64,000 bases of DNA, from positions 1 through 64,000 of the forward strand of contig JAFGLU010000049.1 of NCBI GenBank assembly GCA_016927865.1, given 5' to 3'. Shown here piece after piece: positions 56,120 to 64,000 of this stretch (its first letter is position 1; the number at the start of each line of letters is the position of its first letter). Below the pieces are notes generated by a model. It saw nothing but the letters and a program-made list of their open reading frames with translations, was not told the DNA's origin and ran no database searches. Source of the stretch: Anaerolineaceae bacterium. Its GTDB lineage: Bacteria; Chloroflexota; Anaerolineae; Anaerolineales; Anaerolineaceae. The translations under genes were made by a program, and so were the position numbers.

Positions 56120-57940
56120 TTACACTAAGGCATCCACCATCAATGCCAGGAACAGAAAGGCCAGATACATGCTCGAATAGCGATACATCTTCCAGGCGGT
56201 TTTGTTGCCCCCCTGCTTAAACACCTTCCAGGCCGTGTGGATCAACCACCCGCCCAGAACCAACGCCGAAACCAGGTAAACACTGCCTGCCATCTTAAAG
56301 AGCGGCATGAGCAGGGTCAGCCCGACTAATTCAAACGTGTAAATCAACACCTGCTTGCGCGTCTCAACCTCCCCACGCACCACCGGCAGCATGGGCACCC
56401 CCCCGCGGGCATAATCACTGCGGCGCACCAGCGCCAGCGCCCAGAAGTGCGGCGGCGTCCAGAAGAAGACGATGGCAAACAGGAACAGCGCTGGAATATC
56501 CAAACTGCCGGTCACTGCTGCCCAGCCCACCAGCGGCGGAATGGCCCCCGCCCCGCCGCCAATCACAATGTTCTGCACGGTCAGGTGCTTGAGCCACACA
56601 CTGTACAGGAGCACGTAGTAGATCATCCCGGCCAGTGACAGTACCGCTGCCAGCAGGTTGACAAACCCCGCCAGCAGGAAGAACGCTGCCAAGCAAGCGG
56701 CCAACCCGTAAGCCAGCCCTTCGGCGGGTTTCAAACGCCCGCCCGGCAGAGGCCGGTTCTGCGTGCGCTGCATGGCCTTGTCAGTCTCCCGGTCGATGTA
56801 CTGGTTGAGCGCGCTGGCCCCGCCGGCTGCCAGAGCCCCGCCCAACATGGTCCAAAAGGTCAGCCCCGCGCTCGGAATCTCCTTGCCCGCCACCACCATG
56901 CCCGCGTAGGTAGTGACCAGCAGCAACACAACAATGATGGGCTTGTTGAGCAGAATGAAATCTTTGAAACGGGTGCGGAAATGCAGCGGTTCTGCAGCTT
57001 CCAAGGCCTCGTCTTCCGCGCTGCGTCCCACCCAGGCCGCCGCGCCCACCAGCACCGCCAACACGCCCCACAGCCCCGCCGACATGACCGAATGCAGCCC
57101 GACCAGGTCCGCCGGGAAGCCGCGCGCCATCTTCAACCCGCCGATGAGCACCTGCCCAGCCAGCAAGATAAACGCTCCCGAAGCCGCCGAGAGGATGACC
57201 GGTTGACTTCGCTGCGAGCGCCAGGCCCGCAAGAACAACGCCAACGATAACCCTCCTGCCACCGCGGTCAACAGGCGATGCCCAAAGGCCAGCCAACCCA
57301 ACGGCTGGGTGGGCAGCCCGCCCGAACACAACGGCCAGCCCGCGCAGGCCGACCCCGCGTTACTGGCGGTCACCCAGGCGCCGCTAATCATCAACATAAA
57401 CACCGCCAGCGCTGTGAGGACGCTTAGGCGCGCAAAAGGCGAGCGAGGTTGCAGCGGGGCAGCCGCGAGTTTGTCCCGTTGCAAATAGAAAGCGCTCACT
57501 GCGGCAATAACAACCAACGCCTGGGCCGGTAAAGACAGCAGCAGATGCCAGGTGGGCAAAGCCCCTTCTGCACCGCGCGCGACCAATCCCGCGCCTAAAA
57601 ACACCTGCACCACCATCAGCGCCGAGGCCAGCAACAAAGGCAGGCTCAGCCACTTCTGAGCCCGGTGGCGTAGTAACACCCATCCGGTGGCGGCCCATAC
57701 CAGCAGCGCGCTCAACCCGGCCAACGCCCGATGCAGCACCTGCACCCGCGCCTGCACCGGCTCAGGAATGCCCCACTGCCCGTAGCAGGTGGGCCAATCG
57801 GGGCAGGCTTGAGCGGCATCCTGCACGCGCACGGCCCCGCCCGCCGCCATCATCAGTAGAATCGTGATTGCCGCTGCCAGCAGCAAAAAGCGCAAGCGAT
57901 TAATGCGCGGTTGAGTTTCGTTTGAGTTGGTTGCGAACAT
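56120..57940 (-). CDS. ctaAB: Fused heme A synthase / heme O synthase (CtaA-CtaB)
   Basis: The 606-residue membrane protein joins two enzymes. Residues 1-about 300 are CtaA, heme A synthase, with conserved His in HRALAGL, WHLLLSL, GHRLLTA and LHSVMSA, and Cys pairs CPDWPTC and CAGWPLC. Residues about 310-606 are CtaB, protoheme IX farnesyltransferase, with NQYIDRETDKAMQRTQNRPL and DYARGGVPMLP. Together they turn heme B into heme O and then heme A for the oxidase encoded upstream in the operon. The start overlaps the end of surf1 by 41 nt. Confidence 0.93.
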   Translation of the reverse strand: MFATNSNETQPRINRLRFLLLAAAITILLMMAAGGAVRVQDAAQACPDWPTCYGQWGIPEPVQARVQVLHRALAGLSALLVWAATGWVLLRHRAQKWLSLPLLLASALMVVQVFLGAGLVARGAEGALPTWHLLLSLPAQALVVIAAVSAFYLQRDKLAAAPLQPRSPFARLSVLTALAVFMLMISGAWVTASNAGSACAGWPLCSGGLPTQPLGWLAFGHRLLTAVAGGLSLALFLRAWRSQRSQPVILSAASGAFILLAGQVLIGGLKMARGFPADLVGLHSVMSAGLWGVLAVLVGAAAWVGRSAEDEALEAAEPLHFRTRFKDFILLNKPIIVVLLLVTTYAGMVVAGKEIPSAGLTFWTMLGGALAAGGASALNQYIDRETDKAMQRTQNRPLPGGRLKPAEGLAYGLAACLAAFFLLAGFVNLLAAVLSLAGMIYYVLLYSVWLKHLTVQNIVIGGGAGAIPPLVGWAAVTGSLDIPALFLFAIVFFWTPPHFWALALVRRSDYARGGVPMLPVVRGEVETRKQVLIYTFELVGLTLLMPLFKMAGSVYLVSALVLGGWLIHTAWKVFKQGGNKTAWKMYRYSSMYLAFLFLALMVDALV

Positions 57941-58688
57941 AAAAAGGGTATCCCACTCCCAGCATTGATGCGAATAAGAACCATTGTACAGCGTAGCCCA
58001 TATGCGGGCCTTCGCTCAAATCCACTTCCGGCGCGCTGCGCTGTAAAAGCACAGCCCCCTCCACCGGCGCCGCCAGCAAGTATACCGGCAGCAGCTCCCC
58101 GCTCACCTGCAAAGCAATACGCTCCAGGTTGACAAAGTTCCAGGCTTCCAGGCGCGCCTGCCCGGGGGCCAATTCCGGGTCGGGCCGCCCTCCCCGGCGC
58201 GGTTCAGACTGCCCCGCCTGTATCCACCCACTCACCGTCACGGTGCCCGGTTCGGCGTATTTTGCCAGGCTCTGCCCGCCATCTTCCAACGGGATCCAGC
58301 CGCGGTTCACCAACACTACCGCCTGGCTGCCCTCTATGCGCAGCGGTGTCAGCACATGATAACCCGGCAGGTCATTCCACGCCTGGTTGCGCAGCAGCAC
58401 CTCTTCCTCTGGAACATATACACCTGTCACGGTTGCAGCACGGCCATCCATAACGGTCAAATCCGCTGTGGGCCAGGCCTGGTTAAGATCAAGCGCAGGC
58501 AGTGCCGCCATGCTCCGAACTTGCGCGTTCACCGCGCGGCGCTGTTCCAGCCGGTCCAACTGCCAGATGCCCAACCGAATCATCACCGCCACGGCCGCAA
58601 TCACCAGCAGCGTGGCAAAAACCCAGCGTGGAGTCAGCAGCAGACGCCAATCCAGGCTGCCTTCGGGCCGCAGCGCACGCGCCGTCAT
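57900..58688 (-). CDS. SURF1 family cytochrome oxidase assembly protein
   Basis: The 262-residue protein has the SURF1 two-helix plan: TM1 near residues 23-43 (VFATLLVIAAVAVMIRLGIWQ, then LDRLEQRR) and TM2 near 228-248. The signature segments are GVYVPEEEVLLRNQ, GYHVLTPL, VLVNRGWIPL, FVNLERI and HMGYAVQWFLFA. SURF1 helps insert heme A into oxidase subunit I. It overlaps the cupredoxin gene by 4 nt and ctaAB by 41 nt. Confidence 0.9.
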   Translation of the reverse strand: MTARALRPEGSLDWRLLLTPRWVFATLLVIAAVAVMIRLGIWQLDRLEQRRAVNAQVRSMAALPALDLNQAWPTADLTVMDGRAATVTGVYVPEEEVLLRNQAWNDLPGYHVLTPLRIEGSQAVVLVNRGWIPLEDGGQSLAKYAEPGTVTVSGWIQAGQSEPRRGGRPDPELAPGQARLEAWNFVNLERIALQVSGELLPVYLLAAPVEGAVLLQRSAPEVDLSEGPHMGYAVQWFLFASMLGVGYPFYVRNQLKRNSTAH

Positions 58689-59215
58689 TCTGTCCCTCCG
58701 GTCTGCGCGCTTTGCACAGCTTGCTGCTTTTTGATCGGGAAGATCAGAAAACTATACAGGGCAATCATCACCCAACTGGGCAGGCCAATCATCAAGGCGC
58801 CCGTCACGCGCATTCCCAGGGTCAGCCGCGGCAGCACCTGGATGCCCATCACCTGGTCCACCTGGAACGAGCAGGCATAGCTGTAATTATTGGCTGTGAT
58901 CAGCTCCAGCACCCCGCTGGACTGCGCCGGCACCCACACCGGTCCCAACTGGTGGCTGACCGTGTCCTGATTGCGCACGATCAGCAGGTCGCCCTCCACG
59001 AAGGTCATCGTCTCGGGCAGGCTCAAATTCTCTTCCCCGGCAGCCACCCGCTCGGCGGTGCCCTCCGGGATAACGATCTCTATCTGCCGGGCTTCGTCAC
59101 GCCGGTTGGGGTCCTTCATCGACTGGTAGCTGGTCTCGCTTATCAGCCAGCCCCCTACCACACCAATGATGAGAGAAATCCCAATCCGCAGCAGCACGGC
59201 TTTGGTCATGTTCAT
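58685..59215 (-). CDS. Membrane-anchored cupredoxin-like protein
   Basis: The 176-residue protein has an N-terminal TM helix (residues about 6-25), a soluble beta domain and a C-terminal TM helix (about 140-160). The domain has TVSHQLGPVWVPAQ and NNYSYACSFQVDQVMG, giving His, Cys and Met in the order of a type-1 copper/cupredoxin site, though a second His is not obvious. Its place between sco and surf1, with 4-nt overlaps on both sides, suggests a copper chaperone or electron carrier for the oxidase. The family is not named with certainty. Confidence 0.65.
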   Translation of the reverse strand: MNMTKAVLLRIGISLIIGVVGGWLISETSYQSMKDPNRRDEARQIEIVIPEGTAERVAAGEENLSLPETMTFVEGDLLIVRNQDTVSHQLGPVWVPAQSSGVLELITANNYSYACSFQVDQVMGIQVLPRLTLGMRVTGALMIGLPSWVMIALYSFLIFPIKKQQAVQSAQTGGTE

Positions 59216-59799
59216 CTCGATTCCCTCACCAAAAAACGCAGATCCGAGACCAAATCCGCCACCGGTGTACCAAACGCATAGGTGGCGCGCAGGTTACCCG
59301 CCCCGTCGACCACATAAATGCGCGTGGAATGATCCACCAGGTAGCCCGCCTTTGAACCCACCTCGCGGAGGATGCGCGTTACGCCGTAAGACGCCCACAC
59401 CGCTTGCAATTCCTCCTCGCTGCCGCTCAAGCCACGGATGCGCGGGTCGAAAGCCGCGGTATAAGCGCTCATGCGCTCGGGGGTGTCCCGCGCCGGGTCA
59501 ACCGTAATGAACAGCATCTGCACATCCCCGGCATCCTTGCCCAACCCCTCCAGCACCTGCTTGAACTCGCCCAGCGTCGCCGGGCAAATATCCGGGCAGG
59601 TGGTATACCCAAAAGCCAGCATCACCACCTTGCCTTGATCATCACTCAGGCGATACTCTCCTAAAGCAATCTCCGGCGCGGGCGCGGGCGGCACAATGGC
59701 CGATCCACGCAGCGTGTAAGGTTGGGCCAATACCAGCCCAACCGCCGCCGCGAAGAACAAAGCCGCTCCGCCCACCACCCACACCAGGATTCGCTTCAC
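59212..59799 (-). CDS. SCO1/SenC family copper chaperone
   Basis: The 195-residue protein has an N-terminal membrane anchor and a thioredoxin-like fold with the copper site TTCPDICP (CxxxC, near residues 72-76) and the distant His in YLVDHSTR. SCO proteins deliver copper to, or reduce, the CuA site of subunit II. The start is GTG at 59799 after AGAGGTAA; the longer frame overlaps the coxIII end. It overlaps the next gene by 4 nt. Confidence 0.92.
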   Translation of the reverse strand: MKRILVWVVGGAALFFAAAVGLVLAQPYTLRGSAIVPPAPAPEIALGEYRLSDDQGKVVMLAFGYTTCPDICPATLGEFKQVLEGLGKDAGDVQMLFITVDPARDTPERMSAYTAAFDPRIRGLSGSEEELQAVWASYGVTRILREVGSKAGYLVDHSTRIYVVDGAGNLRATYAFGTPVADLVSDLRFLVRESR

Positions 59800-59809
59800 T
59801 GTTACCTCT

Positions 59810-60385
59810 TTACGCCACCGTGCCAATCAAATACAGGGCCGGGTAGAAGAAAATCCACACCAGGTCCACGAAGTGCCAGTAATTGGCCGCCGCTTCCACC
59901 GCCCAGTGCTTCTCCGTGCTGTATTTTCCGCGCAGCCCGTTACGCAGCACCAGGGCCAGGAAGATCACCCCGGTCAGCACATGGAAGGCATGCATGCCGG
60001 TCATCATGTAAAACACCGCGCCAGCCGGACCGTCATCGGGGCCAAAGTGGGCAATCTGCCACTCCACGCCCACCACCCCCACCAAGAAGGCCACGCCCAG
60101 GATCAGGGTGATGGCGGTGCTGACGACAAAGCCCTTGCGGTTGCCCTGCGAAATCTGAACTTCGGCCCGGTTCATAAAGAAGCTCGACACCAGCAGCACC
60201 GACGTCACTATCAGGCCCACAAACTGATCCAACTCAGGGCGGGTACTGCCCAACAGGTAAAAGCGCGATACCAGCAGCCCGCCAAACACAAACGCGTCGG
60301 AGATGAAGAACAGCCACAAACCGATACGCGCGGTGCGCAGCTTGTCGGCATAACTGGAATGAGCGGTTGCAGCATGAGCGGTCAT
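59810..60385 (-). CDS. ctaE: Cytochrome c oxidase subunit III
   Basis: The 191-residue protein has five hydrophobic helices and the subunit III features RIGLWLFFISDAFVFGGLL, MTGMHAFHVLTGVIF and YWHFVDLVWIFFYP. It is the short, five-helix form common in Gram-positive-like and caa3-type oxidases. The start overlaps the subunit IV stop by one base (TAATG). Confidence 0.93.
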   Translation of the reverse strand: MTAHAATAHSSYADKLRTARIGLWLFFISDAFVFGGLLVSRFYLLGSTRPELDQFVGLIVTSVLLVSSFFMNRAEVQISQGNRKGFVVSTAITLILGVAFLVGVVGVEWQIAHFGPDDGPAGAVFYMMTGMHAFHVLTGVIFLALVLRNGLRGKYSTEKHWAVEAAANYWHFVDLVWIFFYPALYLIGTVA

Positions 60386-60582
60386 TAATGCCCTCCTTCA
60401 TCGCGGAATGCGCGCTTGACGTGCATAAAGAACCACAGCACCAACCATCCCTTGCCCAGGGCCAGAACCCACAGCAAAATCGCGGGCAGGTGCGTTATGG
60501 CTACCACATACTCGATCGCGGTCAGCACAGCCAATCCCGCAAAAACAATCAAACCTTGTTTCAATTCATCTTTTTTATTCAT
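60385..60582 (-). CDS. Cytochrome c oxidase subunit IV
   Basis: The 65-residue protein has two hydrophobic helices (residues about 9-28 and 33-52) and the WLVLWFFMHVKRAF ending typical of prokaryotic oxidase subunit IV. It has a small stabilising role in the membrane oxidase. It lies 13 nt after coxI and overlaps coxIII by one base. Confidence 0.85.
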   Translation of the reverse strand: MNKKDELKQGLIVFAGLAVLTAIEYVVAITHLPAILLWVLALGKGWLVLWFFMHVKRAFRDEGGH

Positions 60583-60595
60583 TGGCTTCCCCTCC

Positions 60596-62455
60596 TCAGT
60601 CCGCCGCCTGCGCAGCAGGCGCGACTGGTTGGTTCACTTCAACATATTTGGAGCCTTCCAGACCATAGTCATAAGGCTCGCCAACCACCACCACCGGAGT
60701 GTCGTAATTGTGCACCGGCATGGGCGAGGGCGCCAGCCACTCGGGCGAGCGAGACTCCCACAAGTTACCTTTGGCCGGTTCTCCCGCCCGCGCGCCGTGG
60801 TACAGGTTGATGAAGAACAGCAGCACCGCCACCGCCACCATATACCCGGCAATGGTGATGATCATGTGGGGCAGGTCAAAACCCAGGGCCGCGTCGTAGT
60901 CGGCAATGCGCCGGCGCATGCCCAACAGACCGATGCGCATCTGCCCAAACGAAGTCACCATAAAGCCGATATACAGAAGCCAGAAGTGCCACTTTCCCAG
61001 CTTCTCGCTCATTCGCCTACCGGTGATCTTGGGGAACCAGTAGTAAATGGCCGCGAACACCGGGAAGATATAACCGCCGAACATGGTGGCGTGGAAATGT
61101 CCAACAATGTAATAGCTGTCGGTGATGTGCAGGTCGGTGGACACCGTGCCTGCCATCGGCCCGGTGATGCCTCCCACCAGAAACACGCTGATGGCTCCCA
61201 GTAGGAAGTACATGGGCGTCTGCAAGCGCATTTTTCCCTGCCACATGGTTGCCGTCCAGCTAAAGAACTTGACCCCCGTGGGCACAGCCACTAGCAAGGT
61301 GCTGTACATGAACGGCACGCGCAGGTATTCTTCCATGCCCGCCGCGAACATGTGGTGCGCCCAAACCAGGAAGCCCACCAGGGCGATGCCCAACGAAGAC
61401 ATGGCGATCCAGCGGTAGCCGAACAAGGGTTTGCGCACGAACACCGGCAGCAGCTCGCTGATCACGCCCAGCCCCGGCAAGACAAAGATATACACCGCCG
61501 GGTGTGAGTAGAACCAGAACAGGTGCTGGTACAGGATGGGGTTGCCGCCGCCAGCCGGGTCGAAGAAGCTCATCCCCAGCAAGCGCTCGAACAAGGTCAT
61601 CTGGAAGGCCAAACCAATCAACTGTGTAGCGGTCAGCGCCATGATCGAGGTCGCCAGCACGCTCCAGGCCAGGATGGGCATGTTAAACATCGCCATGCCG
61701 GGGGTGCGCATTCGCACAATGGTGGCGATCAGGTTGAGCGCCCCCAGGATGGACGACCAGCCCACGAACCACACCCCCACAAAGAACAACTGGATGCCCA
61801 TCGGCCCGCGGATGCTCAGCGGGGCGTAGCCGGTCCAGCCGGTTTCAAAGCCGCCCAGCGCCAGGCTGGAAACCAGCACCAGCGACGCCGGCACCGCCAC
61901 CCAGAAGGAGAGAGCGTTCAGGCGCGGGAAAGCCATGTCTCGCGCGCCGATCAACAGCGGGATAACGTAGTTGGAGATGGCAGCGATGCCCATCAAGATC
62001 GAAGCGATCAGCACCATGCCGTGCAGCCCCACCAGCGAGTTGAACAACTGGAAGGAGAGGAACTGCCGCCCCGAAGCCGCCAGCTCGGTGCGGAAGATGA
62101 GCGCAAAGGTGCCGCCCAGCGCCAGCAGGACCATGGAGAGGATGCCATACTGCACGCCAATGACCTTGTGGTCAAAGCTCAAGCCCCAGTAGCGGCGTGC
62201 GCCCGGAGGGTCCTGAATTTCCTCGGGCTCATGCACTTCCTCGCCCAACACCATATGATACCAATCGCTAAAGGCCCCCAGGCCGATCAAGAAGCCCAGC
62301 ACACCAAACACCGCGCCCACCACATAAGCCGGCTCGGCGTTCAGGGGCCGCCCCAGCAGCGCCTGAATGCCCGCCACCAGACCAAAACCAATCGGCGTGC
62401 CGATCAGTTGGCCGATCACGCCGCGTACAATGTCGTAAGAGAATATCTTTTTCAT
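60596..62455 (-). CDS. ctaD: Cytochrome c oxidase subunit I, A2-type
   Basis: The 619-residue protein has an extra N-terminal segment and then the twelve-helix heme-copper core. Heme and copper ligands are present: LHGMVLI (low-spin heme His), FYSHPAVYIFVLPG (CuB His and the cross-linked Tyr), WAHHMFAAG (CuB His pair) and GHFHATMFG (heme a3 and a His). The Tyr-Ser in FYSHPAVY replaces the Glu of GHPEVY, which defines the A2 group of proton-pumping oxidases. The start at 62455 has the site GGAGG. It is the catalytic subunit for oxygen reduction. Confidence 0.94.
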   Translation of the reverse strand: MKKIFSYDIVRGVIGQLIGTPIGFGLVAGIQALLGRPLNAEPAYVVGAVFGVLGFLIGLGAFSDWYHMVLGEEVHEPEEIQDPPGARRYWGLSFDHKVIGVQYGILSMVLLALGGTFALIFRTELAASGRQFLSFQLFNSLVGLHGMVLIASILMGIAAISNYVIPLLIGARDMAFPRLNALSFWVAVPASLVLVSSLALGGFETGWTGYAPLSIRGPMGIQLFFVGVWFVGWSSILGALNLIATIVRMRTPGMAMFNMPILAWSVLATSIMALTATQLIGLAFQMTLFERLLGMSFFDPAGGGNPILYQHLFWFYSHPAVYIFVLPGLGVISELLPVFVRKPLFGYRWIAMSSLGIALVGFLVWAHHMFAAGMEEYLRVPFMYSTLLVAVPTGVKFFSWTATMWQGKMRLQTPMYFLLGAISVFLVGGITGPMAGTVSTDLHITDSYYIVGHFHATMFGGYIFPVFAAIYYWFPKITGRRMSEKLGKWHFWLLYIGFMVTSFGQMRIGLLGMRRRIADYDAALGFDLPHMIITIAGYMVAVAVLLFFINLYHGARAGEPAKGNLWESRSPEWLAPSPMPVHNYDTPVVVVGEPYDYGLEGSKYVEVNQPVAPAAQAAD

Positions 62456-62469
62456 AGTCAATCCTCCGG

Positions 62470-63882
62470 TTAGTCAACCGTCTGGATGAAAGCGATGATG
62501 TCCTGAATTTGCTCATCCGTCAGCAAATCGCCGTACGTGGCGGGCATCACATTGGGTGGATAGCCCTTATGGATCAGCTTGTTCGGGTCCAGGATCGATT
62601 CCAGCAGGTAAGCATCATCCACGGTCACGGTGCTGCCGTCTTCCAGCTCCACCTGGCTGCCATAAAGGCCCTTCCAGGTTGGCCCAACCAGCGACGCGCC
62701 GTCCAGGGTGTGGCAGGACGTGCAGTTGATCTCTGCCCACTTCTGCCCGCGCGCAGCCGGGTCAGCTTCCACGGCATTGACCTGCTCTGACAGCCACGTC
62801 TCAAACTCGGCCTGGCTCACCACCTGCACCGGGCTGTTCATGTAAGCATGTGCCCCGCCGCACAACTCCGCGCACATCACCTCATAATTACCCACCTTGT
62901 TAGGCGTCACCCGCAGTTGCTTAACCAGGTTCTCACCGGGCAATACGTCCTGCTTGACGCGGAATTCCGGCACCCAGAAGGAGTGAATCACATCCCGCGA
63001 GGTCAGGCTGAGCAGCGCCTGCTTGTTCACCGGCAAATATAGCGTGGTCGAAGTCACGCCGTAGTCTGGGTACTCGAACAGCCACGCCCACTGGTACCCC
63101 ACCACCCGCACGTTGAGGGGCTGAGCGGCTTCTTCGCGGATCTCGGCCAGGTTTTGCGCACCCCAATAAGAAAAACCCAGCACGGTGACCAACGGGATGA
63201 CCGTCCAGATCACTTCCAGGCGGGTATTTCCCGTAAAGTAAGCCCCTTCTTGCTTTTCGCCGGGCTTGCTGCGGAACACCACCGCGCTGTACACCACAAA
63301 GACCGTGATCAGCGAGAAAAGGAACGCAATAATAACAAAATGCGCGTTGAACAGCGTGTCAATGGTCACCGCCTGGGTGCTGGCCTGATCGGGCAGCAAC
63401 CCCACGGCGAAGAACAGCAGGCTGATCAACGCGGTTGACACGATCACCAACGTCCCCGCGATCAAAAAATGTTTCATGTTACCGCTCCTGGATTTGAGTT
63501 TGGCAGGGTTGTGCGCGGGCCGGGCAGGCACGCCCATCCAATCTTCGGCTTGGGCCGGGGTCAACGTGCGGCGGTCGTAAACGACCACTTCGCCGCTGGC
63601 CTGCAGGGAGACCAGCATGACCTGCATTGGACGGTCGCCCGCAATGAAATGGCTCAGGAATGCTTCGCGGTGAATGGTGCGATCGTCGTAATCGACGATG
63701 ACCAATTCGGGCTGCCAGCTTTCCAGCCGGGCCAGGGTTTCTTCCATGCTACCGGCCAGGTTGAAATCTACCGATTCCGCCCCCCACTTCTCGCCATACA
63801 CCTTCTGAAGCCCCTTCGCAAACAGTGGGTTTGCGGAAGCTATTAAAACTTTTTTTCTTGGTTCAATTTCCGCATCGCTCAT
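62470..63882 (-). CDS. ctaC: Cytochrome c oxidase subunit II fused to degenerate receiver domain and cytochrome c
   Basis: The 470-residue protein has three parts. Residues about 10-115 resemble a response-regulator receiver (KKVLIASANPLFAKGLQKVY, PELVIVDYDDRT) with an Asp at the phosphorylation position but without the usual acidic pair and Lys. From residue 136 (MKHFLIAG) come three hydrophobic helices and a CuA domain with Cys337, Cys341, His345 and Met348 in CAELCGGAHAYM. The C terminus has a heme c site CTSCH (387-391), making it caa3-type. An internal ATG at 63477 with AGGAG could also give an ordinary subunit II. The start at 63882 has GGAG upstream. It is the first gene of the oxidase operon. 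Confidence 0.88.
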   Translation of the reverse strand: MSDAEIEPRKKVLIASANPLFAKGLQKVYGEKWGAESVDFNLAGSMEETLARLESWQPELVIVDYDDRTIHREAFLSHFIAGDRPMQVMLVSLQASGEVVVYDRRTLTPAQAEDWMGVPARPAHNPAKLKSRSGNMKHFLIAGTLVIVSTALISLLFFAVGLLPDQASTQAVTIDTLFNAHFVIIAFLFSLITVFVVYSAVVFRSKPGEKQEGAYFTGNTRLEVIWTVIPLVTVLGFSYWGAQNLAEIREEAAQPLNVRVVGYQWAWLFEYPDYGVTSTTLYLPVNKQALLSLTSRDVIHSFWVPEFRVKQDVLPGENLVKQLRVTPNKVGNYEVMCAELCGGAHAYMNSPVQVVSQAEFETWLSEQVNAVEADPAARGQKWAEINCTSCHTLDGASLVGPTWKGLYGSQVELEDGSTVTVDDAYLLESILDPNKLIHKGYPPNVMPATYGDLLTDEQIQDIIAFIQTVD

Positions 63883-64000
63883 AATCGTTTGCTCCGGACA
63901 GCAAATATAAAGAGGATAGCCTCTATCCACTTATGAGTATACGAAAATGAGTACGCGCCGGCTATCCATCAAGCCGGCGCGTAAGGGTTAACTCAATTTT
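63883..64000. other. Right-edge region upstream of the oxidase operon
   Basis: GGATAG-CCT-CTATCC forms a small hairpin at 63914-63928, and TACGCGCCGGC pairs with GCCGGCGCGTA (63952-63983). On the minus strand TATACT near 63937-63942 is a possible -10 box for the operon. The larger hairpin may belong to a gene off the edge. Confidence 0.4.

Follow-up and report, generated by a model that had tools for sequence, protein, structure and literature searches.

What would a domain of the signalling type be doing in front of a core subunit of a respiratory oxidase? The question is raised by one long frame near the end of the window, the whole 64,000-nucleotide stretch of Anaerolineaceae DNA analyzed here, in which a pseudo-receiver domain (PsR), a linker and subunit II of a caa3-type oxidase (CoxB) follow one another. 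The frame comprises 470 codons from the ATG at 63882, or 486 from a GTG upstream. The initial annotation had described a receiver-like domain in frame ahead of a normal caa3 subunit II, and so it is: no stop separates the domains and CoxB is complete.

62470..63882, minus strand: long frame of PsR, linker and CoxB, 470 aa; open frame, with the same fusion in 37 loci
63535..63858, minus strand: PsR domain, residues ~9-116 (~115 residues), from PF00072 matches of homologues, the structural model and fold searches
63478..63534, minus strand: variable linker, residues 117-135, stop-free in frame and of low model confidence
62818..63117, minus strand: CuA (cupredoxin) domain of CoxB, residues ~256-355, PF00116
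62473..62766, minus strand: C-terminal cytochrome c domain with CxxCH, PF00034

Residues ~163-470 match PF02790, PF00116 and Cytochrom_C, and score 170.1 bits against the TIGR02866 CoxB model, above its cut-off of 147.7. The CuA and heme ligands (C337, C341, H300, H345 and M348; C387xxC390H391) are invariant in the alignment, and these features together identify an ordinary caa3 oxidase subunit II. An assembly frameshift or sequencing error is ruled out because the same in-frame fusion, sought in relatives as the initial annotation had proposed, recurs at 37 loci.

Is the added domain a receiver, and could it still work as one? Residues 1-135 searched alone against Pfam gave zero matches; among its homologues, 46 of 53 match PF00072 (Response_reg), the best at 4e-8, and a PsR profile compared with solved chains finds NarL proteins closest (E about 3e-7). 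Structure prediction yields a receiver fold (AlphaFold, mean pLDDT 81.5) with the topology β1-α1-β2-α2-β3-α3-β4-β5-α5, in which α4 is missing, and the matches returned by Foldseek and VIA are almost all receivers, with Z up to 11.3. The acidic pair is replaced by S16/A17 and the switch Lys position is absent, as had been noticed at the outset; the intact acidic pair and lysine of a phosphorylatable response regulator are thus lacking, and standard phosphotransfer, judged from these residues, cannot be performed by PsR. Two positions are retained, S92 and the Asp that opens the following motif.

63682..63693, minus strand: DYDD, residues 64-67, whose D64 corresponds in the alignments to NarL's phospho-acceptor Asp

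D64 is invariant in 53 sequences, which excludes an aspartate-less receiver (ALR); by the published definition, a receiver homologue without conserved catalytic residues (PMC12632262), the residue pattern makes PsR a pseudo-receiver but not an aspartate-less one. D66, D67, D103, R104, S16 and S92 are likewise invariant or nearly so, and the invariant residues group along the edge of the old active site. On the alignment, the pocket has been rebuilt around D64, D66, D67, D103 and R104, and the domain repurposed rather than decayed. The label "degenerate receiver" therefore captured the kinship of the domain and misjudged its state, since invariance extends to the phospho-acceptor Asp and to a newly formed group of pocket residues; degeneration by drift is ruled out by these residues together with a pooled pN/pS of about 0.12. 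As to ancestry, the genome of the window holds 68 receiver matches, and the only other one found by the PsR profile is the regulator encoded next door; the sequences suggest, without proving, that PsR arose from this neighboring NarL-type regulator. A viral or mobile origin was dropped, as a search of viral contigs found no relative.

Searches of related genomes found PsR across many Anaerolineales. It is fused in frame to CoxB at 37 loci, is a separate gene directly upstream of coxB at 17, some with a spacing of 1 nt or an overlap of 4 nt, and has no coxB after it at three (G013, G026, G177); Levilinea saccharolytica is among the bearers of a fused copy. Within the family of the window, PsR is fused or adjacent at 27 of 31 caa3-type coxB places; three of the exceptions lack PsR (G101, G164, G167) and in the fourth coxB lies on another contig fragment (G026). 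In the rest of the phylum only ordinary response regulators were matched, at about 26-40 bits, scores above 100 bits being confined to Anaerolineales; a wider spread was accordingly rejected. Relatives with two separate genes, which the initial annotation had named as counting against a fusion, do occur at the 17 loci; they do not refute it, because 37 others hold it in frame under selection. Pooled pN/pS is 0.12 for PsR, 0.11 for CoxB and 0.49 for the linker, so that by this sequence measure purifying selection on PsR is as strong as on CoxB. The fused linkers, 1332 codons in all, contain no stop in frame, while the two alternative frames contain 35 and 71. Because the zero partly follows from the definition of the fused class, sister pairs were tested too: not one of 159 substitutions created a stop, for which random substitution gives a joint probability of about 0.007. 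Insertions and deletions in the linker preserve the frame. On the CoxB tree, fused and separate states change about five times, with two large fused clades and several forks left open.

The fused frame offers a second place to begin translation.

63892..63895, minus strand: GGAG, probable Shine-Dalgarno (SD) of the long form, duplex energy -5.8
63485..63489, minus strand: AGGAG, internal SD before the coxB start
62470..63477, minus strand: short form, CoxB from the ATG at 63477, 335 aa; the same Met starts unfused CoxB
63403..63477, minus strand: N-terminal hydrophobic helix of CoxB, residues 136-160, from the model; present in unfused CoxB

Residue 136 opens an M(K/R)H motif identical to the beginning of coxB in unfused relatives. 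A second start at 63477 with its own ribosome-binding site had been proposed, and its AGGAG (63489-63485) has a counterpart at every fused locus: the internal SD is -6.6 kcal/mol or stronger in 37 of 37 (mean -9.25), against a mean of -3.7 at other internal ATGs, 18% of which have an SD. Since an SD and a start are conserved in this way inside a longer frame, translation very probably does begin here as well. For the long form, the best SD has a mean of -5.5; since the internal one is stronger at 31 of the 37 loci, the short form probably predominates. In the model a disordered linker leads into helix 136-160, which two transmembrane helices (169-202, 220-247) and then the CuA domain follow. 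Given that the CuA domain is periplasmic, these helices predict that PsR lies in the cytoplasm, where the initial annotation had put it with the help of an extra hydrophobic helix. That helix exists, and could be a signal peptide or a signal anchor, but it is no addition: it is CoxB's own, found in unfused relatives too.

Downstream, the window contains the rest of a cox operon.

60596..62446, minus strand: CoxA, the next operon gene, PF00115; conserved order
56120..60582, minus strand: operon remainder, namely Cox4-like, Cox3, SCO1, an unnamed 176-aa protein, SURF1-like and a CtaA-CtaB fusion

Typically the genes are arranged as cytochrome c, histidine kinase (GAF-HisKA_3), NarL-type regulator, PsR, CoxB, CoxA, Cox4, Cox3, SCO, the unnamed protein, SURF1 and CtaAB. 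The locus thus usually adjoins a NarX/NarL-like kinase-regulator pair, whose regulator has an intact DD/D/T/K set. Several features of the operon merit mention in their own right. CoxA carries an N-terminal extension of ~95 residues with extra hydrophobic segments ahead of its COX1 domain, and its starts in relatives look similar. The 176-aa membrane protein between SCO and SURF1 (58685-59215, minus strand) has no Pfam match, occurs in nearly all cox operons examined at 33-63% identity, and resembles a small cupredoxin in its middle. CtaA (COX15) and CtaB (UbiA) are fused in 606 aa (56120-57940, minus strand), joining the synthases of heme A and heme O in a single chain.

Between the regulator and PsR-coxB lies an inverted repeat, GGGTGAT-N6-ATCA(C/T)CC, found in conserved form at the majority of 54 loci spread over the order; here it is located just past the end of the window (C97:64007-64026, L027). 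In the genomes tested, exact GGGTGAT-N6-ATCACCC hardly occurs anywhere else, and the repeat is likely to be the operator of the cox operon. A terminator is not favored, as the sequence is conserved in distant genomes and no constant T-run follows it. NarL heptamers are not enriched upstream (19 found, 33 expected). In this genome a GC-rich hairpin resembling a terminator also lies in the gap that separates the regulator gene from PsR-coxB (63953-63982). Genus g8 has, in place of the inverted repeat, ATCACCC repeated in direct orientation at a distance of about 22 nt.

How might these parts work together? The reading that we tentatively prefer, with a confidence not quite reaching the halfway mark, is that PsR serves the caa3 oxidase from the cytoplasm, as an accessory or regulatory module. 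Subunit II would then be a two-part protein, a NarL-derived PsR being tethered on the cytoplasmic side through a flexible linker and the first CoxB helix. The two starts would give a long PsR-CoxB and, from the stronger ribosome-binding site, a short and ordinary CoxB, such that probably only part of the oxidase pool bears PsR. Through the rebuilt face of its pocket, PsR may bind the oxidase complex itself, factors that assemble it or some partner in the cytoplasm, in the manner of the orphan receiver Rv3143/MSMEG_2064, which binds and modulates mycobacterial complex I. In two genomes where PsR is found away from coxB, it sits beside SURF1 or CtaAB (G026, G177). The first suggestion, that PsR could couple the assembly or activity of the oxidase to a signal, gains plausibility from where PsR lies in the operon, from the two-component system next door and from the mycobacterial precedent. 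On the other side, tethering is dispensable, since PsR lacks a membrane anchor at the 17 loci where its gene is separate, and the link to the neighboring two-component system would fit a signalling role as well or better.

That link is the ground of the main rival, a genuine though doubtful possibility, which holds that a PsR descended from the neighboring NarL-type regulator and held at the membrane binds the kinase or the regulator, tuning the cox operon by the level or assembly of the oxidase. The kinase-regulator-PsR-CoxB order of most loci speaks for such feedback, as do the regulator's standing as the only other match to the PsR profile in this genome and the conserved inverted repeat ahead of PsR. 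Genomes without the pair beside PsR usually encode a regulator of 58-77% identity at another place (G002, G221, G296, G043, G231, G275). Receivers meet kinases through a face made up of α1 and the active-site loops, the very elements conserved in PsR, and interactions of this sort have been proposed for other pseudo-receivers. The exceptions weigh against feedback: G052 has only a 47% regulator, and genus g8 (L116, L117 and L119; G011, G170 and G166) retains PsR with an atypical regulator, its acidic pair altered to DN or DG, and no recognizable kinase beside PsR and the regulator. So, with a qualification, do the two loci in which PsR without an adjacent coxB stays by assembly genes, where the kinase and regulator are adjacent as well: L121 (G026) and L141 (G177) have the kinase-regulator-PsR set beside SURF1 or CtaAB. 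Feedback and the oxidase module are compatible, and the present data do not separate them firmly.

Either could operate on a processed protein. Just past the first helix lies a further conserved element.

63370..63384, minus strand: A-S-x-Q-A, residues 167-171, possible signal peptidase I site, from the alignment

Across the fused loci A167 and A171 are invariant and S168 and Q170 nearly so, a pattern that would suit cleavage by signal peptidase I. It is doubtful, yet worth considering, that the first helix of CoxB is removed as a signal peptide and that the long form is a precursor of mature CoxB plus a membrane-anchored PsR. The motif occurs in unfused CoxB as well, and bacterial CoxB usually has a cleaved signal peptide; the hydrophobic stretch is, however, long for one and may be an uncleaved anchor. 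Such a cut, if it occurs, would free PsR from CoxB and in that respect tells against the oxidase module.

An elaboration that we rate as unlikely closes the loop entirely: the dual starts would set a fixed fraction of PsR, which would report the assembly or redox state of the oxidase to the NarX/NarL-like pair, and the pair would control the same operon, so that the enzyme speaks to its gene through a disabled signalling domain. Less credible still is an incidental fusion of little consequence, in which PsR has a cytoplasmic job of its own and loss of a stop between two translationally coupled genes was tolerated with CoxB starting internally. The separate genes at 17 loci, some of them closely spaced or overlapping, the coxB start signal in all fused loci and the weakly constrained linker suit it. 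Against it, two large clades have diverged far without losing the open frame, the tree shows few changes of state, and linker indels and sister-pair substitutions leave intact a frame that neutral drift would often have broken.

A search of the literature for a receiver-CoxB fusion found no paper. The way in which pseudo-receivers exert their effects is still unsettled (PMC12632262), and a case in which one is covalently joined, across a bacterial order, to a known protein, a core subunit of an oxidase, limits the candidate partners and brings the question within reach of experiment. Like other bacterial pseudo-receivers, which have lost catalytic residues and often act by protein contacts (PMC12632262), PsR usually adjoins an intact kinase-regulator pair, as some of them do (CmrRST); unlike them, it is fused to a respiratory-chain core subunit, lacks α4 in the model and has no DNA-binding output. 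NarL (E. coli 1a04, M. tuberculosis 3eul) offers the closest solved sequences, with the same fold and phospho-Asp position, whereas PsR has S/A for the acidic pair and no switch Lys, α4 or HTH. With caa3 subunit II (TIGR02866) the protein shares two TM helices, the CuA site and the C-terminal cytochrome c, and differs in its dual start and added N-terminal domain, predicted to be cytoplasmic. A functional parallel is mycobacterial: a CheY-like protein is reported to bind NuoD (PMC9274095), and chain O of mycobacterial complex I (8e9g, 8e9i) is among the fold matches of PsR, with Z about 10. Rv3143/MSMEG_2064 is a stand-alone receiver recruited to a respiratory complex and encoded next to the genes of that complex (PMC9274095); for PsR, an association with the oxidase is suggested by the fusion and by linkage within the operon. 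The mycobacterial protein interacts as a separate chain with NuoD of complex I, whereas PsR, in a different phylum, is covalently joined to the CoxB subunit of a caa3 oxidase. If PsR does serve the oxidase, it would be a second case, after mycobacterial complex I, of a signalling domain recruited to a respiratory complex.
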